This document shows positions 1 to 18,675 of a stretch of DNA of 64,000 nt, piece by piece (positions within the stretch are counted from its first letter, which is position 1; each line of letters begins with the position of its first letter). The notes under the pieces were generated by a model. It was not told where the DNA came from and searched no databases. It saw only the letters and a list, made by a program, of their open reading frames with translations. Where the stretch lies: the NCBI RefSeq assembly GCF_005116675.2, contig NZ_CP050699.1, positions 3,681,001 to 3,745,000 of the forward strand. Direction: 5' to 3'. Both the position numbers and the translations under genes were made by a program. Source of the DNA: Desulfosediminicola ganghwensis. Its GTDB lineage: Bacteria > Desulfobacterota > Desulfobulbia > Desulfobulbales > Desulfocapsaceae.

Positions 1-210
1 TATATTTTGCGATAACCGAAACGAGGGTATTTAGTGGAGAGCTTGTGGATCTCTGCTCTCAGGTCCCGCTCACGATTCTTATTTGGCGTAAATCTTTTGC
101 TGCTTCTATTCAAGCCAAGAACTCGGCATGCCCTTCTTTCGCTGATTCTATGTGTTTCTTGAAGGTAATCTGATACATTCCGTTTACTGGCAAGGCTTAC
201 CACTTTTTTG
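1..210 (-). CDS. IS3-family transposase OrfB, N-terminal part only
   Basis: This open frame begins around the A6G run that overlaps the end of OrfA and runs off the window. The translation begins KVVSLASKRN and contains RISERRACRVLGLNRSS and a 'KYPRFGYRKI' block, which are typical of the region just before the integrase (DDE) core in IS3 OrfB proteins. It is normally made as an OrfA-OrfB fusion by -1 frameshifting. The catalytic core lies outside the window, so intactness cannot be judged. Confidence 0.7.
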
Positions 211-462
211 ATACGACATCCTTCAGCATTCGATTGTCGAGCGTTAGTTCAGCCACCAGCTTTTTAGCTCTGAGTTCTCTTTTTCAAGGCCTTTGAGTCT
301 TTTGGCATCGGACACCTCCATTCCGCCAAATTTCTTGCGCGAGCGGTAATATGTCTGCTCGGTGATATTGTGCAGTCTGCATACCTCCCGAATATTTCCA
401 ACTGCGTCTCCCTCTTTGAGTATCCGAATAATCTGTTCTTCGGAAAATCTTTTTCTCTTCAT
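197..462 (-). pseudogene. IS3-family transposase OrfA with a one-base deletion
   Basis: This is the helix-turn-helix subunit of an IS3-type transposase (N-terminus MKRKRFSEEQIIRILKEGD, then the HTH and the 'GGMEVSDAKRLKGLEKEN' region before the leucine zipper). The start is supported by GGAGG a few bases upstream. The frame as given stops at 244 after 72 residues. Changing frame at the A5 run (plus 261-265) restores the expected family ending, with a KKLVAELTLDNRML zipper and a terminal SKKW, stopping at 197. I infer loss of one A. A second, weaker explanation is a frameshift site at this position. Confidence 0.7.
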
Positions 463-498
463 CTGCTTCCTCCAGTTGATTTGATCGAAAGTCTAACA

Positions 499-646
499 TA
501 TCAACTGGTACAAAAGCTAAGGGGCTGGCCAATAACAATACCGCACCAACAGCATACACCTTCTTTGCGTCAGGCGCCAGCATGACTCTCTTAATGGAAC
601 TTTCATAAAATGCACCTTCAATGCAAGTTTTATTGATGTTCAGCAA
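499..646 (-). pseudogene. 5' fragment of an unknown gene interrupted by the IS3 element
   Basis: On the minus strand, a GGGAGG motif near 660-665 precedes an open frame whose first ~48 residues read MLNINKTCIEGAFYESSIKR and continue into a hydrophobic stretch (AVGAVLLLASPLAFVPV). The frame then passes directly into IS3 sequence near 498. The start is uncertain: the TTG at 646 is far from the motif. It may be the front of a small membrane protein. I do not recognise the family. Confidence 0.3.
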
Positions 647-1036
647 ACTGAATATTTTAATAGCCTCCCGTCTATTTATAATAAATGCTAAGCTAAATTA
701 CTTATAACTTCTGCATAGGAAGGCAGTCTAAAATAAGCGATTTTTTCACTACGTATACTAACAAATAAACCTAACACACTAACAACCCCCTCCTTGACAA
801 TTTAAGGTATTTGGGCAAAATTTATGACATTTTTTGTCACTCCAATCCATTATTCTCACTTGAAATGCTTTTATTTATGAGGTAGATACACGATAAACAG
901 GGTATTTATAGACATATTAAATATTTCTTACTTCACAGGCATACAACCTGCATTCATGTGAGAGTTAATTGAAGCGCGTTATATACGCAAACCCCAATCA
1001 CATAACAACCCCAAAACAAGGAGAGAGGTAAACGTT
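647..1036. other. Intergenic region upstream of the pilin gene
   Basis: This A+T-rich stretch separates the IS-damaged gene from pilA. I see no credible gene. It contains the sigma-54-like promoter at 937-952 and a weak sigma-70-like pair: TTGACA at 794-799, 17 bases, then AAAATT at 817-822, which matches the -10 consensus at only 3 of 6 positions. Binding sites for an enhancer-binding protein such as PilR would be expected here, but I could not identify them by eye. Confidence 0.5.
937..952 (+). promoter_or_regulatory. Candidate sigma-54 (-24/-12) promoter of the pilin gene
   Basis: The 16-base sequence AGGCATACAACCTGCA has GG and GC at the -24/-12 spacing and agrees with the sigma-54 consensus (TGGCAYR-N4-TTGCW) except at the first base and one base of the -12 element. 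Transcription would start near 963, giving a leader of about 75 bases before the ATG at 1037. Pilin genes in Geobacter and Pseudomonas are known to be driven by sigma-54 with PilR. That this applies here is inference. Confidence 0.5.
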
Positions 1037-1267
1037 ATGATGAGACTTATCGGAAAACAGCTCAAGAGAGCAAAAGGCGAGAAAGGTTTTACCCTTATCG
1101 AGCTCATGATCGTTGTTGCTATTATTGGTATCCTTGCAGCAATTGCTATTCCTCAGTTCACCAAATATCGCGTTAGAGCAATGAATAAAGCCGCACTCGC
1201 TGATACTCGTAACCTCGCTACCGAGTTACATGCTTATGCAGCCGATACTCAGCAATTTCCAAACTAA
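1037..1267 (+). CDS. pilA: Type IV pilin, short geopilin-like form (PilA-N)
   Basis: This is the structural subunit of a type IV pilus-like filament. Its 76 residues contain a 17-residue basic leader ending KG, which prepilin peptidase would cut before FTLIEL, then the hydrophobic assembly helix. Mature length is 59, with the conserved E5. The globular head of ordinary pilins is missing, as in the Geobacter PilA-N class. Mature aromatic residues are F1, F24, Y27, Y50 and F57, plus H48; Geobacter has F1, F24, Y27, Y32, F51 and Y57, so Y32 is Met here and F51 is shifted by one. The start has a good ribosome site (AAGGAGAGAGG); an ATG three bases downstream is an alternative. The gene is followed 42 bases later by a pilA-C-like gene. 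Confidence 0.9.
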
Positions 1268-1309
1268 TTAATTTTCTACCAACTTTTAAACATTATTTAG
1301 GACTATATC

Positions 1310-1732
1310 ATGAAAAGACAATTAGTAGCTTTAGCTGGTGCAATATTACTGGTTTCGGTTCCTGTTCTCGCTTCCGCCGGTGTATATGATAATGGTACAG
1401 CAGGTACAGCTATTTCTTTTACACCTACAACACTCACCACTAATCCTTTTACTTTCCAGCCATCACCTAACGTCCTTACTTTAGGAGATTCTGATGCAGC
1501 AAACTTTGTTATCGCCGCTTACAATGCCAGTACACTCAAGGCTGATGGTGGTGAAGCATACGGGATGGCTTCTGACGTGTCTGGGACTTATACCCAGGAC
1601 ATCTCCGCTTCTACCGCAACTGCGCCAAGCTTAGGTACTGGAACAGATTCCGCAGCTTTTGGAACAGGTTGGGTTACACCTACCGGCAGCGATGTAGCGG
1701 GTGATACTTCCACCCCCAGTGCCACAAACTGA
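1310..1732 (+). CDS. PilA-C-like secreted protein (geopilin domain 2 / short pilin chaperone type)
   Basis: This 140-residue protein has a clear Sec signal peptide (basic N-terminus MKRQLVALAG, hydrophobic core, cut after ASA near residue 23) and a low-complexity mature part rich in Thr, Ser, Ala and Gly, predicted to be beta. The block 'SDAANFVIAAYNASTLKADG' followed by 'EAYGMASD' recalls the second geopilin domain (GSU1497 type), whose product partners and stabilises the short PilA-N subunit. Length, secretion and position directly after pilA-N support this. Sequence conservation in the family is low, so the call rests largely on context. A terminator follows at 1789. Confidence 0.65.
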   Translation: MKRQLVALAGAILLVSVPVLASAGVYDNGTAGTAISFTPTTLTTNPFTFQPSPNVLTLGDSDAANFVIAAYNASTLKADGGEAYGMASDVSGTYTQDISASTATAPSLGTGTDSAAFGTGWVTPTGSDVAGDTSTPSATN

Positions 1733-6484: not shown

Positions 6485-8074
6485 TCAGATCATCAGCCGC
6501 AGGTTCATCGGCAACAGCTTCAATAGCTCTGAACGAGATTCTGCAAACGGCAATTTCTCAAACAGGTATCTCAGATAATTATACGGTTCCAGATTATTGG
6601 CTTTTGCAGTTTCAACCAGGCTATAGAGTGCGGCACTGGCTTTCGCACCTTCCTGTGTGCCGGCAAACAGCCAGTTTTTTCTGCCGACAACAAATGGACG
6701 TATTGCGTTTTCAGCCGCGTTATTGTCTAGCGTCATATCTGGAAAATAGAGATAGACCAGTAGATGCGCCCATTGATTAAGGGTGTAATTTATCGCAGTT
6801 CCAAGCAGACTTTTGGGTGTCACCTGGCCCGTTTTTTTGTTTAGCCAAAGAAAGAAATCGTCCAGAACAACTTTGGCCTTTTTCCGACGAAAGGCCAACA
6901 ACTCTTCACCAGCTAGCTTATTCCTTGCCCCTTCTTTTTCCACGGCATAAAGCTTACGAATATAGTTCAACGCCACATCCGTGTTGCCGGTCTTTTTAGT
7001 TTTGCCACGACCTTTTTGCGCATCGACAAATTTGCGGCGAACATGTGCCCAGCAACCGGCATGGGCAATGCCAGGCTGTGCATTGAGAAAATCATATGCA
7101 GCGTAACCATCTGATTGCACAGCTCCCTGATAGCCGTCCAGCAACTCTTTAGCGGTCCTGGCCGAGCGACTTGGGGCATAATGATAGAACAATCCGGGAT
7201 GGTGTGGATCACCACCGCGACATATCCACATATATGACTTACTTGTTGGCGACCGCCCAGGTTCAGCCAGAACCTGGACCGAAGTTTCGTCGATATTGAT
7301 CAACGAACCCGAATGAATCTTCTGTCACAGCAGTTCAAGAAGCGGTATGCAGGCATTTGCTGCTTTCATAGCCCAGTTGGCCATGGTAGCCCTGGGTAGT
7401 TCTGCCCCTAATCGGGCAAATTGTCGCTCCTGCCGGTAGAAAGGCAGCGCATCGCAGAATTTCGCAGTAACTATATGGGCGAGTAAGCCTGCAGTGGCGA
7501 TTCCCTTGTTGATAATCCGCTTTGGTGGTGAGGCGATTTTCACTACCGCCCCTTCAGTCTCCAGCCCTTCACAGGATTTGCAGGCATATTTGGGACGAAT
7601 GTGACGTACAACCTGGATAACTGCCGGAATAATATCTAGCTTTTCTGAAACCTCTTCTCCAATGCGATCCAGTTCCACTCCGCAGCCACAGACTTTTTCA
7701 TTTTCGGGAATATCATGTACGATTTCGACTCGTGGCAGGTAGGCAGATAATGGCTTGCGACCGCGTTTTGATCGAGTATGCTCAGGAACTGCTACAACCT
7801 CTTCGACAGACTCTACCTCAAGTTCGGGCATGTCGAACAGTGGCAATTGCATTACGCCTGATTCGGCCGCACCTTTTTCACTTTTTATGCCAAACAGTTT
7901 GGCATAAAGTAGGCGAACCTGTTCTCGTAACAGCGCAGTTTCCCGCTCATAACGACGTTGGGTTGCTACGAGCAATCGTTTAAGTTTTACAGGATCATTC
8001 GGAAGGCTTGCGGTTTCGAATTTCATGCTCGCAACATACCATAGAACCGTTGCTATAACAGCTACTTCAATCAA
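6485..8074 (-). pseudogene. tnpC: IS66 transposase TnpC with an in-frame TGA stop
   Basis: The DDE transposase of the element is split in two by one stop codon. The N-terminal part (7325-8074) holds the coiled coil, the zinc-finger-like region CGCGVEL/CKSCEG and the IS66 core entry (ALPFYRQERQFARLGAELPR). The C-terminal part (6485-7303) holds the catalytic region, with INIDETSVQVL, the QSDGYAAYD block and DNNAAENAIRPFVVGRKNWL. The TGA at plus 7325-7327 keeps both halves in one frame, 7 codons apart (QKIHSGS), where relatives usually have Arg or Trp. The start is uncertain; the ATG at residue 17 (MKFETAS) looks more natural than 8074. Confidence 0.85.
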
Positions 8075-8086
8075 ATACTCATAAAA

Positions 8087-8362
8087 TCATGATACTGAAT
8101 TATAGCTAAGTTGCCTGTGTGCCTGTTGCAGATCAAGCCCATGTAAAAGCCACTGCAAGGCTGTCTCATGAACCTCGATCACCTCTTCTTCAGATTCAGG
8201 CCAGCGAAAGGTCTCTGCCTCCAACCTTTTCTGCCAGATGCAAAAACCGCTTTGATACCAGTACAGAATCTTGACCATATCCCGTTTCCTATTACAGAAA
8301 GCGAAAAATCTCCCTGAAAAAAGTCCAGGTCGAACTGATCTTCCACCAGAAGAGACAGACCG
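8087..8362 (-). pseudogene. tnpB: IS66 TnpB, C-terminal part, frameshifted
   Basis: This is the rest of the IS66 TnpB gene after interruption by the IS4-family element. Beyond the break it encodes SLLVEDQFDLD, then must change frame at the T6 run (plus 8317-8322) to continue SGRFFAFCNRKRDMVKILYW and QKRLEAETFRWP to the stop at 8087. Joined to the N-terminal part and counted without the insertion, the gene is 347 bases, one short of 116 codons. That agrees with a single-base deletion. TnpB is an accessory protein of uncertain function. Confidence 0.8.
8352..8362. repeat. 11-bp target-site duplication, left copy
   Basis: GAGACAGACCG directly abuts the left inverted repeat of the IS4-family element. 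The identical copy is at 9927-9937. A length of 10-12 bp is usual for IS4-family insertion. Confidence 0.95.
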
Positions 8363-9926
8363 GAATGGCGCTAGTTTAAGCGTGTTTTATAGGTGAAAAG
8401 CAACTGAATATATTGGCAAAAATTGGTATAATTTGCTATGCGAAACCAACACCAAATCATGCCAATGTTGCCCGGTTTTCACCTTCCCAAACGAGGTAGA
8501 AAACCTCATAGCCAACAACAAAAATTTGCTCGAAAAATCACTTCCCTCAGACAGAACTCTTTTAAACAGATAGGAGCGATTTTTGGGCAATTCATTCCCA
8601 CGAAATTGCTCAAACAGGATCCTTCGGGAAAGATGAGCAGACGACGTTTGTTTACCAAGGAAAACACTTTTTGGTCCTTCTTAGGCCAAGTCCTTGATGC
8701 AGACGGTGGATGTAGAGAAGCTGTAAAAAAGTTGCAATCATATGCATCTAACCACGGCCTTCGGCTTCCATCATCATCTACCGCTTCATATTGCTGTGCA
8801 CGTAAGAAATTAGATGAAAATCTGCTTGTTGAGGTGTTTCAACATACTGCTAAATGGTCCGGAGCACGACGTGCATCTCATTCATTAAATGATCGCCAGG
8901 TAATTGTTGTTGATGGGACAGGTGTTACAATGGCGGATACAGCAGAAAATCAAGAGCTTTGGCCACAGTCATCGAACCAGAAACCAGGATGCGGCTTCCC
9001 CTCAGCACGAATATGCGCATACTTTTCATTGCAAACCGGAACAATGCTCAGCTATGCCATCGGTAATAAAAAGAGTAACGAACTTCCATTGTTCCGTAAG
9101 CAGTGGTCCACCTTTGAGGCTGGTGATATCTTTCTTGGTGATAAAGGTTTTTGTAGTTACTTCGATTTAGCCGAGCTGAAAAAACGCTGTGTTGATAGTG
9201 TGATAACACTTGCTCGTAGAAAACCAGTCGGTAGGAAAAACTGCATTAAAGAATTCGCTCCTGATGATCTACTGATTGAATGGAAAAAACCAGTATACAG
9301 GGAAATGGTGTCGTATTCGCGGAAAACCTGGGAGGACCTTCCCGACAAACTCGTTATGAGACAAATCAAAGTAAAGGTGACTCAATCAGGGTTTAGAACA
9401 AAAGAATTTCATATTGTTACCACGCTAATCGATCAAGATCAGTACCTGAAAGACGAAATTGCAGCGTTATACCTTAAGCGTTGGGATGTCGAACTTTTCT
9501 TTCGTGATATCAAGACAACGATGGGATTTGATATCCTCCGGTGCCAATCGCCTGAAATGATAAAGAAAGAAATTTTAATGTACTTCATAGCGTACAACTG
9601 CATCCGGCGCATAATGTTACAAGCGACACAGCTGGTAGACATTGATATCCGGTCTATCAGTTTCAAAGGAAGTCTACAGGCTATTAGAAGTTGGGAACCA
9701 CGGTTGGGGTCCTCTAGGTTGAGCACAAATGAAAGACAAAACATGCTCTCAGATTTATCCTTTGTCGTGGCTCGTTGCAAAGTTTTCGACAGGCCTGGAC
9801 GAAGCGATCCGCGGTGTCTTAAGCGAAGACCAAAACCTTATCAGTTACTCAACAAACCTAGGAGTGAAATGGTCGAAATACAGCATCGGAGCAGATATGA
9901 AAAAAAGGCTTAAACTAGCGCCATTC
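8363..9926 (+). mobile_element. IS4-family insertion sequence, complete, inserted in IS66 tnpB
   Basis: The 1564-bp element is bounded by 19-bp perfect inverted repeats (GAATGGCGCTAGTTTAAGC at 8363 and its complement ending at 9926). It carries one uninterrupted transposase gene. An 11-bp target duplication, GAGACAGACCG, lies at 8352-8362 and 9927-9937; removing one copy and the element rejoins the tnpB frame exactly (NGLS-LLVEDQ). Intact ends, gene and duplication suggest a recent insertion compared with the decayed host element. Confidence 0.95.
8438..9913 (+). CDS. IS4-family transposase
   Basis: The 491-residue transposase has the DDE fold of the IS4 family. The first Asp is in QVIVVDGTGVTMADT, the second in DIFLGDKGFCSYFDLAEL, and the glutamate sits in the YREK-like signature LYLKRWDVELFFRDIKTTMG (Y-(2)-R-(3)-E-(6)-K spacing). 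The reading frame is complete and ends 13 bases before the right end of the element, which fits an active or recently active copy. It is on the strand opposite to the IS66 genes it interrupts. Confidence 0.9.
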   Translation: MRNQHQIMPMLPGFHLPKRGRKPHSQQQKFARKITSLRQNSFKQIGAIFGQFIPTKLLKQDPSGKMSRRRLFTKENTFWSFLGQVLDADGGCREAVKKLQSYASNHGLRLPSSSTASYCCARKKLDENLLVEVFQHTAKWSGARRASHSLNDRQVIVVDGTGVTMADTAENQELWPQSSNQKPGCGFPSARICAYFSLQTGTMLSYAIGNKKSNELPLFRKQWSTFEAGDIFLGDKGFCSYFDLAELKKRCVDSVITLARRKPVGRKNCIKEFAPDDLLIEWKKPVYREMVSYSRKTWEDLPDKLVMRQIKVKVTQSGFRTKEFHIVTTLIDQDQYLKDEIAALYLKRWDVELFFRDIKTTMGFDILRCQSPEMIKKEILMYFIAYNCIRRIMLQATQLVDIDIRSISFKGSLQAIRSWEPRLGSSRLSTNERQNMLSDLSFVVARCKVFDRPGRSDPRCLKRRPKPYQLLNKPRSEMVEIQHRSRYEKKA

Positions 9927-9937
9927 GAGACAGACCG
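9927..9937. repeat. 11-bp target-site duplication, right copy
   Basis: GAGACAGACCG directly follows the right inverted repeat at 9926 and matches 8352-8362 exactly. Confidence 0.95.
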
Positions 9938-10008
9938 TTAATCGACTTTCGCATATCTGTGGCGCCAAGAGCGATGTATACTCGGACTTTTTCCGGAGTG
10001 GGAATCAT
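9927..10008 (-). pseudogene. tnpB: IS66 TnpB, N-terminal part
   Basis: The start ATG at 10008 overlaps the TnpA stop (ATGA), the standard IS66 arrangement. The sequence reads MIPTPEKVRVYIALGATDMR and continues KSINGLS up to the insertion point of the IS4-family element. The 'TDMRKSINGLS' block is the family hallmark. The remainder of the gene lies at 8087-8362. Confidence 0.9.
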
Positions 10009-10334
10009 GTAAGTTGCTCCAGAGTTGTCACAACTTTTTTAAACTGCTCAGAACAAAAGTCGCCCTGGATCTCAAGATTGAAGCGATCAATATGCACAGC
10101 CAGGGAAGCTTTAACATTTGTATCAGGGATTGATGCTGGGACTGCAAGAGGATAAAACGCTGCCTCGTTCTCGTTCCTTCTATTCAGTTTACGTTTCCAG
10201 TAGCCGAAAGTTGCCAGAGCAATTCCGTTCGACTGATAATAGGCTTTCTGGCTTTGGCTACCTGCTTCCCAGGCACCGATATGTTTTTGCCAGTAGTCTT
10301 GCTTCTGTTGAAGTTTCGAGATGTTTCTGCCCAC
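10005..10334 (-). CDS. tnpA: IS66 accessory protein TnpA
   Basis: This small accessory protein of the IS66 element has a helix-turn-helix-like block (WQKHIGAWEAGSQSQKAYY then GIALATFGYWKRKL) of the IS66 Orf1 type. The GTG at 10334 is preferred as start because AAGGAGG lies 8 bases upstream; longer readings to 10427 would run into the element's terminal repeat. The gene appears intact (109 residues), unlike tnpB and tnpC. Confidence 0.8.
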   Translation of the reverse strand: MGRNISKLQQKQDYWQKHIGAWEAGSQSQKAYYQSNGIALATFGYWKRKLNRRNENEAAFYPLAVPASIPDTNVKASLAVHIDRFNLEIQGDFCSEQFKKVVTTLEQLT

Positions 10335-10435
10335 GATGCATACCTCCTTGGTTATGGTGAGGCATACTGGAACATGAATTTCTTGGCTTGAAAAGATGGG
10401 TTTAATTAGGCGCTTACCTAAAAACAAGCCCAGGA

Positions 10436-11267: not shown

Positions 11268-12620
11268 TTAACCCCGATCAGCCCGACGAATCACCTCACA
11301 GAGTTCATCTGCAATGGTGTCGATCTCAGTTTCATCCTGGCCTTCAACCATGACCCGGATAAGCGGTTCTGTCCCTGAGGGACGAACCAGAATGCGACCG
11401 CTTTTTCCCAGTTTTTGCTCAAGCTTTTTCAAAGTTTGGGGGAAATCCGGAATGGTATCAACCGGAATCTTTGAAGACATCCGGACATTTTTCAGGGTTT
11501 GCGGAAAGCACTCCATGACGTTGGCCAGCTCAGAGAGCGTCTTTTTGCGCTTTTTCATGATGGCCAGCAGCTGCAGACCAGCCAGGATGCCATCACCAGT
11601 GGTGATATGGTCGAGGAACACCAGATGGCCAGATTGCTCACCACCGAAAGAGTATCCCTTCTTCCTCATACACTCGACCACATATCTGTCACCCACGTCT
11701 GTACGCACCAGATTGCCGCCCATACGCTCCATGGCGACTTCAAGGCCCATATTCGACATGCTGGTAGCAACCAGGGTCTTCTTCTTCAGCTTACGCTGCT
11801 TCATCAGCTCCTGGGCGCATATAGCCATGATGTGATCGCCGTCCACGATTTCGCCATGCTCGTCGCAGACTATCAACCTGTCACCGTCGCCGTCAAAGGC
11901 CAGGCCGATATCGGCACCGAGATCCTTCACCTTCCTGGCCATCAACTGCGGATGAAGCGCACCACAGTCCTTGTTGATGTTGGTGCCGTCCGGGTCTACA
12001 CCCAGCTTGGTCACCTTGGCCCCGAGTTCACTGAAGACGTACGGCGCCACACCATAGGTCGCCCCGTTGGCGCAATCGATAACTATATGAAAACCATCAA
12101 GAGTATATTTTTTAGGAAAGGCGTTCTTTAAAAAGACAATATATCTGCCCTTGGCATCATCGATCCGGCTGGCCTTGCCAACCTCGTCTGCCACCGGCCG
12201 CAGCGCTGCCATTTTCTGTGAGAAGATCAAATCCTCGATATCGAGCTCAACCTCATCGGGCAGTTTGAAACCGTCACTGGAGAAGATCTTGATGCCGTTA
12301 TCCTGAAACGGGTTGTGGGATGCGGAAATGACCACACCTGCATTGGCACGCATGGAGGTGGTGATAAACGAGATACCCGGGGTTGGCAGTGGGCCCACCA
12401 ATAAGGCATCCACTCCCATGGAGCAAATACCTGCAGTAAGGGCATTCTCCAGCATATAACAGGAGAGTCTGGTGTCTTTACCAATGATAATCCGGTTACC
12501 TTTGGCTTTATCTTTTACTATGAACGCAATCGCCCGTCCAACCTGCATGGCGATTTCAATGGTCATAGGATAAATATTGGCAACTCCGCGTATACCGTCA
12601 GTTCCGAATAGTTTTCTCAT
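11268..12620 (-). CDS. glmM: Phosphoglucosamine mutase
   Basis: GlmM converts glucosamine-6-phosphate to glucosamine-1-phosphate in the cytoplasm, the step after GlmS on the way to UDP-GlcNAc for peptidoglycan and lipid A. The 450-residue protein has the FGTDGIRG start, the phosphoserine loop ISASHNP (Ser 101), the metal site DGDGDR (243-248) and the C-terminal phosphate site RPSGTEP. Its start touches the stop of cdaR by one base, so cdaA-cdaR-glmM form one operon read on the minus strand. GlmM interacts with CdaA in Gram-positive bacteria. GlmS is encoded elsewhere in this window (54937-56778). Confidence 0.95.
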
Positions 12621-13816
12621 TACTCTTTTACCAGGATTTTCTTTCTATCTGCGGTAATATGTAAAACGCCATCTATTTTTTTATAATAGCTACCGCTTTC
12701 TTCACCCTCAATAATCTCTTCTTCAAGCATTTCCGCGGCGTCACTGTCATCTGAGGCACTACCTTTTTCTGCTTCTATTACCTCTTCAGCCTCTTCTTCG
12801 CCTTCTATAGAACCCTCAGGGTCTGTAATCTCTTCTTCCTTTTTAATCAAAGTAACTGATTCGGGCCTAACTGAAAGGACCTGAATTGGCAGTTGAACAT
12901 CCTGTCTTGGCACAGCTATCACAGGTAACTCACCGTCATCAGCAGAATCCCCTACAGCCGTTACCGAAAAGAGCTGTTGCAAATCGGCATTTTTCCTCAT
13001 CAACAATACCGGAACATTAGCCAGTATTTCCACCTGCTTTGGTTCAACTTCCCGTAGTTCCCCCCCAACATAGCCTATTACAGCAACTTTGCTGATTCGT
13101 TTCTGGACCATTCGGGGTTTAATAGTGATATCAGCCGTGACCGACGTCTCACCAATAAGATCAACTATCGCAGGATCGAGATCGAGAGGGACCTGCACTT
13201 GCCTTGATGCAGACATACCACTTACATCAATTATATCTGTGAGCAAGGCATCTGCATGGGAAAGAACAGTTTCAGGCCCGGTAATGGTAATATTATCGGG
13301 ATTCATCTGCATTTGTACCAGGTCATAGCCTGCCGCCACATCCCCGGTGGTTACCGGCATGATCTTAAAGGACTTCTGAATAAGTTTATCGAGTGAGAGA
13401 ATAACAGTAGAAGGCTGAATCCTTAAAACCGTCACCCCCCTGGGAACCCGGATGGCTTTATTATCATTTTCGATGACATTGGTTCCGGGAGTCGCATTAG
13501 AGAGGTTTATCTGCCTGGTAACAGACTGATTTTCCATATCTTTCAAAACAGATCTCGGGCCACTTACGGTTACTTCTATCTCCTTTTTAAACTGATTGGA
13601 GATAACCAGGTCCCGTGGCATATTGATTATTTCAATGGGAACCTGGATATTTTTATCTACGATATCCTCTCCCCCGACGAAATACCACAACACAGTCGCC
13701 AGCATCAATGACGCGAACTTCAGCACCCAGTCCCTGGTACCGATCCGCTGCAGGCGTCGCAGTGAAAAAAGATCTCTTATGAATTGGATAAAACTTTTCA
13801 AAACCACGTTTTCCAT
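12620..13816 (-). CDS. cdaR: CdaR-type YbbR-domain regulator of diadenylate cyclase
   Basis: The 398-residue protein has a cytoplasmic N-terminus, one membrane helix (about residues 30-48, [16 protein letters not shown]) and several extracytoplasmic YbbR repeats (segments such as [20 protein letters not shown] and the ITGPETVL block). It ends with an unusually acidic tail (about residues 328-375) before a short basic end. CdaR proteins bind and modulate CdaA at the membrane. The gene overlaps cdaA by 19 bases, which suggests translational coupling. Confidence 0.85.
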
Positions 13817-14580
13817 GAATTAATATTCCCTTCCTTGGGAATAAAGATCGCTCTCAAGCTATTGCTCAGACTGATTTCATCGCTAACCGTCGTCAATGCT
13901 CCGTGACGGACCACTGAGATTTCCTGAGTCTCCTCGGAAACAACCAGCACCACAGCATCAGTCTCCTCCGATATGCCTATGGCAGCCCTGTGCCGTGTAC
14001 CATATTTCTTATTGATGTAAGGATTTTGGGTAAGTGGCAGGATGCAGCCCGCTGATTGCACTTTACCTTTATGAATAATCACGCCACCATCATGCAAAGG
14101 TGAGACAGGCATAAAAATCGATATCAGCAACTCCTTGCTCAGCTTTGCATTCAGATCAAAGCCTGATTCGACATAATCCTGAAGCCCTGTCTCTCTTTCA
14201 ATGACGATCAGTGCACCTATCCGTCGTTTTGAAAGGTAAAATACAGAGCGGATAATTTCATCCAGATCCTTATCGGCCACATCCATTGTCTTTTGAAACG
14301 GGGACTTGCCCACCTGGGTGAGAGCTCGACGGATATCTTGTTGAAACACGATGATAACGATTAACAGGATGGAACTGAGAAAGGTCTGCATCAGCCACAT
14401 CAACGCGGAAAGATCGAAGATCTTTGCCAGAAAATAGACGATGGTGAGAATGCCAAGCCCGAGCACCATCTGCACCGAACGGGTGCCGCGTATGATTGAA
14501 ATGAGCTGGTGAATAATAAAGGCAACGACTAGAATATCGAGAAGATCTTGCCAGCGGAAATAACTAGGAACTTCAATCAT
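13798..14580 (-). CDS. cdaA: Membrane-bound diadenylate cyclase CdaA
   Basis: CdaA makes cyclic di-AMP from two ATP molecules at the cytoplasmic face of the membrane. The 260-residue protein has three N-terminal membrane helices (about 13-30, 37-53, 62-80) and a DAC domain. The RHRAA motif (196-200) and SEET (215-218) are intact. The usual DGA motif reads DGG (164-166, in PLHDGGVIIH), a one-residue departure beside the active site. It heads the cdaA-cdaR-glmM operon. The role of c-di-AMP in this group of bacteria is less studied than in Gram-positives. Confidence 0.9.
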   Translation of the reverse strand: MIEVPSYFRWQDLLDILVVAFIIHQLISIIRGTRSVQMVLGLGILTIVYFLAKIFDLSALMWLMQTFLSSILLIVIIVFQQDIRRALTQVGKSPFQKTMDVADKDLDEIIRSVFYLSKRRIGALIVIERETGLQDYVESGFDLNAKLSKELLISIFMPVSPLHDGGVIIHKGKVQSAGCILPLTQNPYINKKYGTRHRAAIGISEETDAVVLVVSEETQEISVVRHGALTTVSDEISLSNSLRAIFIPKEGNINSWKTWF

Positions 14581-15057: not shown

Positions 15058-18000
15058 ATGTCTGATCGTTTTGGCAGTATTCCTATAGAACCGGCACCAA
15101 CTGGGCTCACTCCCTCGTCACGAGCGTCGAAAAAGCCGCGTCAGCGAAAAAAACTTTCGGCCCCGGCTGAAAAACTCAAAAAGCCAGGTGCGCAAAAAGA
15201 GGAGCCCAAACGTAAGCTGCCAAAATTGTTGGTAACCACTATCGTGGCTATCTGCATTTTCTGCAGCTACCTTGCTGCTGGCTTCTGGGGTGTTCCTAAA
15301 TATATTCGCGGCTCTGCAGCAGTTAAATTCCACCAAAAAACCGGAATGCTCATAGACTTTGAGCAGGTTGCATTCAATCCACTTTCATTTGTCCTCGACC
15401 TTTCAGGAATAGATGTGATTGATGGGGGTATACACACTGCAGGCGATGACAACAACCCTCTCTTGACCGTATCTTCCTTTTCTGCAACTCTTGTCCCTCT
15501 GCAATTACTTCGAGGAGAACTTGTTACTACCAGTCTTGCCATAGATAATCTGGATTTACATCTTGTTCGCCACGACGATGGAAATTATAATATTTCTCCA
15601 CCGAAAGCCAATGATGAATTAGAAACTACTGAGGAAATTTTAGATTTCTCTGATCTGCCTTTTCGCTTTTCTCTAAATAATATATCCGTACAACATTCTC
15701 GTATTTTATTTGAAGATAAGCCGAAAAAAGGTTCCCATGTAATTGAAAATATCGACCTCACTCTTCCGAATCTTTCTAATTTTTCTTTTGCTGCCAAAGA
15801 ATATATCCGGCCGAGTTTTCACGCAGTTGTTAACGGTAGCCCGATAGAGATGACCGGACAGGCAATTATCAGTGGTGATGACACCTCTGAAATGCATACC
15901 AATCTCGAATGTAATTTCGCAGATATCGACTTGCCGCTTTATCTCGGCTATTTACCGATAGAGCTACCTTTCGACATCGCCCAAGGCAGAGCCGACGCAT
16001 CACTCAACCTCACATTTTCCCCAACAGCAAAAGATAACAAGTTGCTGGTCAACTTCTCAATTCAGGCAGAAGACACCTCTATAATCAGCAAAGATCAGAG
16101 CTATAGCCTTGTCATTCCATCCAGTAAGCTTGAAGGTGGTATTCAACCAATTACAGGGGACACCCACCTGAAAAACGTTGTTTTGCGCCAACCTGAGCTT
16201 CGTTTGAAGAGTTCTGTTACCATTGAGGACGCGGTTGCAGCTATCAGCGCAGTAAGTAATGTGAAACAAGACGACCCTGCCAGCTACCCCGCTACACAAA
16301 GCAAACTCGATATAGACCTGTTGCTCGCCGACAGTGGCAGCCTGTTATTTTTAGATAATAACAATGAGCCGCTGGCAAAATCCTGGACGGGCGTTCAAGT
16401 CAGCCTGAAAGATTATTCCAACACCGCCCCAATCACAGAAACAAATACAGCTTCTTCTTTTCGTTTAATGGCCGAAGGAAGTGATAAGAAAAGCTCTTTC
16501 AAATGGCAGGGCAAACTTAATCATGCCAATTTCCCTGATGGTCAGCTCCACCTCACCGGTGTTCATGCTCCCTGGATCTTGAATATGCTCGGCCTGAACA
16601 CAATTGGCGCACATAAAGGCACCGCTGACACCCAGGCTCATATCAGTTTTAGCAAGGGACTGGAAGAAAAGGACAAACCTCGCCTGCAAATAGCGGACGC
16701 CTCTCTTACCCTGCGCGATTTTAGCGCAAAACAAGGTAAGACTGTCTGGTACTCAAGCCCTGACACCCAAATTACCGGCTTTAGTAAAGAGGGTAACCGT
16801 ATTTCCCTTGGCTCCATAGTCACTCAAGACGGCTCCGTGCATATCAATACCAGGAAGCTGCCGGCTATTATTTCATCTCTCGACAAGAAAGAAACTGCAA
16901 CATCGCTGGATGCGCTTGACTTCACCGGCTCCATAGTTGTCGAAAACGGCAGCTCCAGCCAACCACAGCTCCAATTCAGCGACGCCAAGCTGCAGACCAT
17001 ACGACTCTCTCAAGACGCTGGTGGCGAAACCCGGGATAACAGCAATTTTACCGCCAAACTGAAAGGCGGCGGTCATATCCAGGCTAAAGGTCACGTTCAA
17101 CTACAACCATTTTCAGCCAGGTACACTACTCAATTCGGCGATCTGCCCAGCACCAATATTCTACCCTGGTTTGGCAATGGCAGCTTTGTAAACAATATTA
17201 ATGCGATGGTGAGTGGCGCAGGCGAATTGCAGTTGCCCAAAACTCATTTCAATGGCCAGCTCAGCCTTGACCGGGGTTCACTCGGAACCAAAGACTCCAG
17301 GAAATTCAGCTGGGATAAAGCGCAATTTGAAAAGTTCCAATACCATGGTTCACCTCTTAGGATCTCTGCGGCAGAGCTTTTTGTCGACGGTCCCGAATTT
17401 TCTCTTACCCAGAGTTATGGTGATAAGCAATCTCTGGCACGACTTCATTCCTATATACAGTCAGATATAGCCAAACCACTCTACAAAGCTGCCGGCAAAC
17501 AAAAGGACGCTCTCCAGATAGGAAAAATCAGGGTGGCAGATGCCAAAGTCAGCTACGCCGACACCAGACTCTCTCCAGTCTGGAAGGGCGAGTTTTCTGC
17601 CGTCAACGGTACAATTCAGGCCATCAACAGTGGTCGCAATGGCAAACCTTCCCTTTTCAGCTTTTCTGGCAAGCTCGATTCTGTCCCATTTAAGCATGAA
17701 GGGGCACTTGCACTCTTCGCTTCTGCTATGAACGGTGACAGCACCTTCTCTATCGCTGATTTACCACTTCCATCGTTTCATGAGCAAATTTCCAACCAGA
17801 TCGACATTGATACCAGCAGCGGCCTGGTCAATGTAACTGAGACAACAACATGGAAAAACGGTACCATGGAGCAGAAAAGCGAGATGATCTTCCGTGATGT
17901 TGAACCTCTTTCGGAGATTGCCGATTCCGCCCTTACCCTGGCTTTGATTTCCAACGATGAAAACCAGTTCACCCTTACTGCGGAAAACTCACAGCCAGAC

Positions 18001-18675
18001 AGCTCCAAACCACTCAACCTGTATTCAGATGCTGTATTCTCGTTAAAGAGGATGATGGTGAAGGCGTCTGTCTCGCCTCTGCTTCTTGCTTCAGGTAACT
18101 TCTCGGACCTTGTCGGCAACGAACATGCCGATTTTCTACCAGGGGAAATTATTCTCTCCGGGCAGGGGCGCGAATCCCTTACACGCTTCAGTAACCTTCT
18201 TGCCTCTCACCCCTACATTGGTATCACTGTGACCGGAGTTGCAGACCCGAATGTTGACGGCAAAGAACTCAAAGAAGCCCTGGAAAAATTAGAAAGTCAG
18301 AGGGTAGCCGAAGAAAATCGCAAACGCAGTGAACAGCTCGACAGGGAAACGGAAGAATACCTGAGAAAAGCAGCCGAAGCCCGAATTGCTGCAGGGAACA
18401 CTGGTCAGGTGATTGAAGAGGACCTGCCTGTGCATCTGTTTTCCAAATACGCGCCTATTGAGCCTGAGCCAATAGTCATTGACGAGTCAATGTTGAGACA
18501 ACTCGCAGACCAGAGAGCCAAGGTCATAGCAACCTTTTTCGTGGAAAACCTTGCCCTTGATGAAAGCAGAATAAAGATAAACAATCAGTCTCAGATATCG
18601 CAGAACGAGATTTTACCTGGTAATAGAGTACAATTCTCCATTGAACCGTATACCCAACAAAAAAGCAGGCAATAA
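15058..18675 (+). CDS. Large AsmA-like DUF748 envelope protein
   Basis: The 1205-residue protein has a basic, Lys/Pro-rich cytoplasmic N-terminus, one membrane helix (about 56-77) and a long periplasmic part of beta-rich repeats. The start of the repeats, RGSAAVKFHQKTGMLIDFEQ followed by VAFNPLSFVLDLSGID, is characteristic of DUF748/AsmA-like proteins. That superfamily includes bridge-like lipid carriers between inner and outer membranes. A charged coiled-coil insert (about 1080-1115, ALEKLESQRVAEENRKR) lies near the C-terminus. A transport role is inferred from the family. No clear ribosome site is visible at the start. Confidence 0.8.
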   Translation: MSDRFGSIPIEPAPTGLTPSSRASKKPRQRKKLSAPAEKLKKPGAQKEEPKRKLPKLLVTTIVAICIFCSYLAAGFWGVPKYIRGSAAVKFHQKTGMLIDFEQVAFNPLSFVLDLSGIDVIDGGIHTAGDDNNPLLTVSSFSATLVPLQLLRGELVTTSLAIDNLDLHLVRHDDGNYNISPPKANDELETTEEILDFSDLPFRFSLNNISVQHSRILFEDKPKKGSHVIENIDLTLPNLSNFSFAAKEYIRPSFHAVVNGSPIEMTGQAIISGDDTSEMHTNLECNFADIDLPLYLGYLPIELPFDIAQGRADASLNLTFSPTAKDNKLLVNFSIQAEDTSIISKDQSYSLVIPSSKLEGGIQPITGDTHLKNVVLRQPELRLKSSVTIEDAVAAISAVSNVKQDDPASYPATQSKLDIDLLLADSGSLLFLDNNNEPLAKSWTGVQVSLKDYSNTAPITETNTASSFRLMAEGSDKKSSFKWQGKLNHANFPDGQLHLTGVHAPWILNMLGLNTIGAHKGTADTQAHISFSKGLEEKDKPRLQIADASLTLRDFSAKQGKTVWYSSPDTQITGFSKEGNRISLGSIVTQDGSVHINTRKLPAIISSLDKKETATSLDALDFTGSIVVENGSSSQPQLQFSDAKLQTIRLSQDAGGETRDNSNFTAKLKGGGHIQAKGHVQLQPFSARYTTQFGDLPSTNILPWFGNGSFVNNINAMVSGAGELQLPKTHFNGQLSLDRGSLGTKDSRKFSWDKAQFEKFQYHGSPLRISAAELFVDGPEFSLTQSYGDKQSLARLHSYIQSDIAKPLYKAAGKQKDALQIGKIRVADAKVSYADTRLSPVWKGEFSAVNGTIQAINSGRNGKPSLFSFSGKLDSVPFKHEGALALFASAMNGDSTFSIADLPLPSFHEQISNQIDIDTSSGLVNVTETTTWKNGTMEQKSEMIFRDVEPLSEIADSALTLALISNDENQFTLTAENSQPDSSKPLNLYSDAVFSLKRMMVKASVSPLLLASGNFSDLVGNEHADFLPGEIILSGQGRESLTRFSNLLASHPYIGITVTGVADPNVDGKELKEALEKLESQRVAEENRKRSEQLDRETEEYLRKAAEARIAAGNTGQVIEEDLPVHLFSKYAPIEPEPIVIDESMLRQLADQRAKVIATFFVENLALDESRIKINNQSQISQNEILPGNRVQFSIEPYTQQKSRQ

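Follow-up and report, generated by a model that had tools for sequence, protein, structure and literature searches.

This locus raises the question whether CdaA, a membrane-anchored diadenylate cyclase, still makes c-di-AMP in a Gram-negative sulfate reducer in which its DGA motif reads DGG. The window, i.e. the whole stretch of 64,000 nucleotides that was analysed, comes from Desulfosediminicola ganghwensis, whose genus belongs to the order Desulfobulbales. The preliminary description of this DNA had recognized the operon, its gene order and the exchange of DGG for DGA, which stand, and had cast the enzyme as questionable, which for the most part does not. In the reading that we consider highly probable, this is an ordinary cdaA-cdaR-glmM operon with an active CdaA, the alanine-to-glycine exchange is a tolerated and reversible variant of the lineage, and c-di-AMP mainly serves the uptake of K+ and osmolytes.

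The cdaA-cdaR-glmM locus

The three genes are adjacent on the same strand in the order of the known operon (Table 1). The overlap of cdaA and cdaR amounts to 19 bp, and the cdaR stop and the glmM start have one base in common (TAATG); open reading frames and family matches thus bear out the gene order and overlaps described earlier. The genes are presumably co-transcribed. A scan for promoters and terminators returned five promoter-like sites upstream of cdaA, compared to a mean of 2.0 in shuffled sequences, and no terminator there. CdaA matched the TIGR00159 equivalog model with 237 bits (cut-off 188.8), and its domains are CdaA_N at the N-terminus (PF19293, 30.4 bits) followed by DAC (PF02457, 150.8 bits). 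Seventeen distinct PDB sequences matched the protein, the best at 9.8e-50. GlmM scored 607.6 bits against TIGR01455 (cut-off 447.55) and contains ISASHNP, which we take to be its active-site serine loop. CdaR shows two YbbR stretches (PF07949, 70.7 bits) and, by eye, a hydrophobic stretch.

Table 1. Positions of the features discussed; operon features and their neighbours are given in window coordinates, all others in the coordinates of the respective locus
Feature	Position	Strand	Description
cdaA	13798-14580	-	ORF, 260 aa; membrane-anchored diadenylate cyclase (CdaA_N + DAC)
HDGG, CdaA residues 163-166	14083-14094	-	DGA motif position, Gly166 replaces Ala
Gly166 codon	14083-14085	-	third residue of the DGx motif
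GTRHRAA, CdaA residues 194-200	13981-14001	-	phosphate-binding motif, intact
cdaR (ybbR)	12620-13816	-	ORF, 398 aa; predicted regulator, YbbR repeats
CdaR acidic C-terminal tail, ~residues 321-380	12677-12856	-	low complexity
glmM	11268-12620	-	ORF, 450 aa; phosphoglucosamine mutase
Transposase-like ORFs	6485-10427		downstream of glmM
DUF748/AsmA-family protein	15058-18675	+	1205 aa; divergent from adjoining cdaA
L002, window genome	454-1935		DACND-DACNH-DAC; DAC over cut-off; ARYNSA at RHR position
L003, window genome	535-1824		DACNV type; DAC part sub-threshold; TRHQS
L004, window genome	352-1674		DACNV type; DAC part sub-threshold (8.9e-4); DGA and TRHRS
L240, window genome	772-1788		DHH-DHHA1, 339 aa; candidate c-di-AMP or pApA phosphodiesterase
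L241, window genome	808-2130		DHH-DHHA1-CBS-CBS, 441 aa; candidate c-di-AMP or pApA phosphodiesterase
L123, CdaA-CdaR fusion	58-1503	-	CdaA_N-DAC-YbbR in one chain
L129, CdaA-CdaR fusion	2-1450	-	CdaA_N-DAC-YbbR in one chain
L131, DAC protein	2-814		~300 aa
L132, DAC protein	260-1162		~300 aa; also matches the DacZ_P sensor domain
L266 (G396), second riboswitch	528-1193	-	upstream of a gene with a transglycosylase SLT domain

The closest named loci are those of Desulfosediminicola flagellatus (94% identity), Desulfopila aestuarii (90%) and Desulfopila sp. IMCC35008 (89%). In the named relatives inspected cdaR follows cdaA, and glmM comes next in six of seven neighbourhoods; in the seventh (L067) it is not visible in the letters inspected. 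On the other side of cdaA, an ORF of ~1100-1250 aa occupies the position of the DUF748/AsmA-family protein in seven inspected relatives. ORF reading places transposase-like frames downstream of glmM in the window, where four relatives (L064, L065, L066, L068) carry glycosyltransferase-like frames instead. According to ORF reading without a family search, the window also encodes lpxA/lpxD-like acyltransferases and a multihaem cytochrome, in agreement with the Gram-negative anaerobe proposed at the outset.

In gene content, gene order and domain make-up the locus resembles the Firmicutes operon of B. subtilis, L. monocytogenes and S. aureus, with which its CdaA also shares the ten ATP-binding residues, the RHR motif and the GlmM-contacting arginine; it differs in the glycine at the third position of the DGA motif, the Gram-negative sulfate-reducing host and the acidic tail of CdaR. 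A second point of comparison is Leptospira CdaA (LIC10844), which is likewise membrane-anchored, encoded next to cdaR and found in a cell of Gram-negative type. In the part of the source available to us this enzyme is proven active (PMC12974146), but its operon is without glmM and its motif is DGA, whereas the window has glmM and DGG.

The arginine that would contact GlmM is present in the window CdaA (SKRRIGAL) and in 105/125 DGG rows of our alignment. In B. subtilis CdaA, Arg126 is needed for inhibition by GlmM (PMC8573169, partial text), and in the dacA/ybbR/glmM operon of S. aureus GlmM inhibits DacA, while a role for YbbR was not conclusively seen in the portion of that report at hand (PMC6368335). 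By analogy to these two systems, inhibition of CdaA by GlmM and contact with CdaR are likely here.

The acidic tail of about 50 residues that had been ascribed to CdaR is real, as 21 D/E face 3 K/R in residues 321-370. It was considered as a conserved element and rejected, since only the window CdaR and that of the nearest species show it strongly, and it weakens in other relatives. The last 90 residues contain 27 acidic and 10 basic residues in the window CdaR, 23 and 11 in D. flagellatus (L064), and 15 and 11 (L065) or 16 and 14 (L066) in the two other genus mates; across the relatives compared the numbers range from 5 to 23 acidic and 7 to 16 basic, in a comparison in which some rows are cut by contig ends, one (L038) is out of frame, some genomes are repeated and some relatives are missed. 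Because other relatives are closer to charge balance, we regard the tail as a variable low-complexity end.

The DGG motif and the catalytic residues

The two motifs of the window CdaA read SPLHDGGVIIHKG and GTRHRAAIG, which confirms the earlier observation of DGG in place of DGA with RHRAA kept. Aspartate and glycine of the literal DGA signature are retained and the alanine is replaced; DGA stands opposite DGG in all five PDB alignments inspected. Given this departure from the signature, and with DGG the majority state of the order, we treat the protein as a variant. For Listeria CdaA, the available part of PMC7288161 lists ten residues that bind ATP or its metal: Leu131, Asp171, Leu188, Gly201, Thr202, Arg203, His204, Ser222, Glu223 and Glu224 (numbers of that source plus 100, to match D171/R203 in the accessible text of PMC8573169). 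The alanine after Asp-Gly is absent from this list, and the window CdaA keeps all ten residues on it. H170, D171, G172, G201, T202, R203, H204, R205, S222, E223 and E224 (Firmicute numbering) are found in 125/125 DGG rows, as is the motif GTRHRAA. All ten ATP-binding residues are identical in 105/125 DGG rows and 101/112 DGA rows, and the deviating DGG rows carry Ile or Met for Leu. Codon comparison with three close relatives indicated purifying selection on cdaA, with pN at 0.05-0.08 and pS, saturated, at 0.80-0.89 (L072, out of register, was left out).

Desulfobulbales CdaA (n = 172) comprise 125 DGG, 45 DGA and 2 DGS proteins. The host family contributes 58 DGG, 21 DGA and 1 DGS (n = 80, from the 80 of 93 genomes with a CdaA over the TIGR00159 cut-off, the other 13 being outside the counts) and the other families of the order 67 DGG, 24 DGA and 1 DGS (n = 92). 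The latter stem from an even sample of 116 genomes, of which 111 exceeded the cut-off, 19 of these being members of the host family; the remaining five are outside the motif counts. In the rest of the phylum all 67 sampled CdaA have DGA, a sample drawn from the higher-scoring part of ~241 CdaA over the cut-off (257 minus 16 of the order), so that lower-scoring lineages could hold DGG. The motif patterns required HDG and RH, by which none of the 239 CdaA loci was lost; L195, with GMRHR instead of GTRHR, was included through a wider pattern. Nine named loci (L064-L072), at least three of which repeat genomes already counted, are outside the counts. A FastTree tree with the trait columns removed required at least six exchanges between alanine and glycine within the order, and seven over all rows, the pattern expected of a tolerated substitution.

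DGG was initially regarded as a peculiarity, a view weakened by its majority in the order, by the repeated exchanges there and by the catalytic residues that DGG proteins keep. The further idea that DGG might prove common among CdaA proteins of proven activity holds in so far as the motif is common in the order, but no assayed DGG enzyme was found. Judged by sequence comparison, DGG is very probably a harmless, clade-typical change that does not point to a defective or aberrant enzyme. Since the alanine of DGA is dispensable in evolution, motif filters that accept only DGA would mistakenly remove cyclases that are probably active. In the literature searched we found no paper on a DGG diadenylate cyclase, and among titles and abstract openings retrieved for Deltaproteobacteria and Desulfovibrio no description of a CdaA from sulfate reducers; the survey 'All DACs in a row' (10.1128/jb.00023-23) may mention the variant, and we do not firmly claim it as new to print. 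According to the accessible part of PMC7288161, Deltaproteobacteria often carry DAC genes.

A different consequence of the exchange would be a widened nucleotide or metal pocket with altered specificity, be it for another dinucleotide, another metal or a changed rate. The DGx residue lies beside the catalytic Asp, and within the host family it varies together with a second residue, ten positions downstream, which is T/S in 58/58 DGG proteins and H in 21/21 DGA proteins. Outside the host family, however, this association fails, with T/S in 58/67 DGG proteins and S (16), A (6), T (1) and K (1) in the 24 DGA proteins. An independent-pairs test on the tree was not significant (median p 0.5 and 1), and the events are few. 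Compensation between the two positions was consequently rejected as an explanation; the two residues may face each other across a hairpin. Moreover, some genomes in which DGG CdaA is the sole DAC detected contain riboswitches of the c-di-AMP class (see below), and we consider altered specificity very unlikely.

Published mutants leave room for an inactive enzyme, in which a dead or crippled DGG CdaA would be kept as scaffold or sensor while another DAC-like protein makes c-di-AMP. Exchange of DGA for AAA abolishes the activity of CdaS (PMC4568413), and Leptospira CdaA is inactive as D172A or R203A, which assigns the requirement to the Asp and the first Arg (PMC12974146); M. tuberculosis DisA, on the other hand, is still active with Gly73, the residue neighbouring the third position, changed to Ala (PMC3328451; all three in the parts available to us). 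Against an inactive CdaA also speak the retention of the catalytic residues in every DGG row and the repeated swaps of alanine and glycine within the order.

Riboswitches and further DAC proteins in relatives

The RF00379 riboswitch class is a c-di-AMP aptamer. Within the window the RNA search found two tRNAs and no riboswitch, and a genome search found no RF00379 riboswitch in the genome to which the window belongs. In the family, riboswitches occur in 13/93 genomes, eight of them with DGG CdaA (of 58) and five with DGA (of 21). The order sample holds them in 19/116 genomes (13 DGG, 5 DGA and one without canonical CdaA), and G397, G452 and G469 are common to both sets. With no riboswitch in the window's genome and none in 50 of the family's 58 genomes with DGG CdaA, the argument that follows rests on a minority of relatives.

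In eight genomes the DAC-domain and riboswitch searches detected a DGG CdaA as the single DAC together with at least one riboswitch, although 'only DAC' is possibly overstated given that PF02457 barely detects the DACNV type (8.9e-4 for L004). Several of the riboswitch genomes are drafts, 89-95% complete. A K+ transporter (Pfam K_trans) follows the riboswitch in G438 (93% complete), G498 (89%) and G508 (90%), the first of two riboswitches in G396 (99%) and one of two in G520 (93%). In G492 (99%) and G509 (92%) the riboswitch precedes a transporter of the amino-acid-permease type, and in G503 (95%) the locus ends ~500 bases further on, before the downstream gene could be named. The aptamer in L273 (G492) matched the whole RF00379 model with 90 bits. 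As a separate observation, the gene downstream of the second G396 riboswitch encodes a transglycosylase SLT domain, which hints at a cell-wall target.

With the riboswitch class a c-di-AMP aptamer and DGG CdaA the only DAC detected, the most economical interpretation is that c-di-AMP is a product of DGG CdaA. The genus mate G428 also combines a DGG CdaA with a riboswitch, located before a kup-like gene (by signature), and has two DAC domains. Four DGA genomes with one detected DAC carry riboswitches as well (G261, G519, G553 and G567), and the riboswitch therefore tracks the pathway and not the DGG/DGA motif.

Three more DAC-like proteins are encoded in the window's genome, one scoring above the Pfam DAC cut-off and two below. 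As one of them, L004, has DGA and RHR, c-di-AMP could come from elsewhere than CdaA, which is a point in favor of an inactive CdaA; weighed against the eight riboswitch genomes and the conserved catalytic residues, we give that alternative little credence. Comparative evidence thus makes it very probable that CdaA with DGG works as a diadenylate cyclase.

Proposed pathway, receptors and turnover

In the pathway that we propose, CdaA would be anchored in the inner membrane, where two DAC domains placed head to head would condense two ATP to c-di-AMP, catalysis being left intact by the tolerated and reversible change from Ala to Gly. GlmM, encoded just downstream, would most likely bind the DAC domain via the conserved arginine and thereby inhibit CdaA, and CdaR most likely contacts the membrane part of the cyclase. 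For the window's genome, catalysis, both protein contacts and the choice of receptors are what we infer. In this order the main role of c-di-AMP would be to control the uptake of K+ and osmolytes. Some species would use riboswitches for this, and others, among them the host of the window, presumably rely on proteins of the RCK_C type. Through the riboswitches, K+ uptake in Gram-negative sulfate reducers is linked to c-di-AMP.

The preliminary description had called for a search of the genome for phosphodiesterases and receptors, which gave a mixed outcome: no PgpH or GdpP type was found, and RCK_C (TrkA_C) domains occur at 16 places, 14 of them over the cut-off. Some RCK_C domains bind c-di-AMP in other bacteria. 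None of the 93 family genomes had a PgpH-type 7TM-HD protein over the cut-off, in a search whose control matched 4/14 known genomes; G476 gave one sub-threshold match with two stops in frame. DHHA1 was found at seven places in the window's genome. Besides the two candidates in Table 1 these are RecJ (with a RecJ_OB domain), an alanyl-tRNA-synthetase-like protein (L239, by frame reading), L242, in which DHH, CBS and poly(A) polymerase are fused, and L243 and L244 (331 and 339 aa), both weaker DHH/DHHA1 proteins. GdpP is a long PAS-GGDEF-DHH protein, an architecture found in 0/7 of them. A dedicated c-di-AMP phosphodiesterase of the known PgpH and GdpP types was thus not found in this genome, and its phosphodiesterase would be neither of the two.

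The more interesting remainder lies in this phosphodiesterase and in the extra DAC-like proteins of these genomes. A more speculative and rather improbable extension is that the c-di-AMP/K+ system of Desulfobulbales relies on a DGG cyclase and lacks both PgpH and GdpP. Degradation of c-di-AMP would then fall to a hitherto undescribed enzyme, for instance L241, in which the two CBS domains could also sense a nucleotide, and the extra DACs of the DACN type would add sensory input.

Some family members encode additional cyclase-like proteins. A second cyclase in which CdaA is fused to CdaR was observed in L123 and L129 (Table 1); Pfam confirmed the fusion in the genus mates G429 and G430, with DGA and with RHH instead of RHR, and the window's genome was found to have none. 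In 19/93 family genomes there are open frames of 476-513 aa that match TIGR00159 more weakly, and the three that were read (L124-L126) have RHR. DAC proteins of ~300 aa are present in some family members as well, one of them with a match to the DacZ_P sensor domain.
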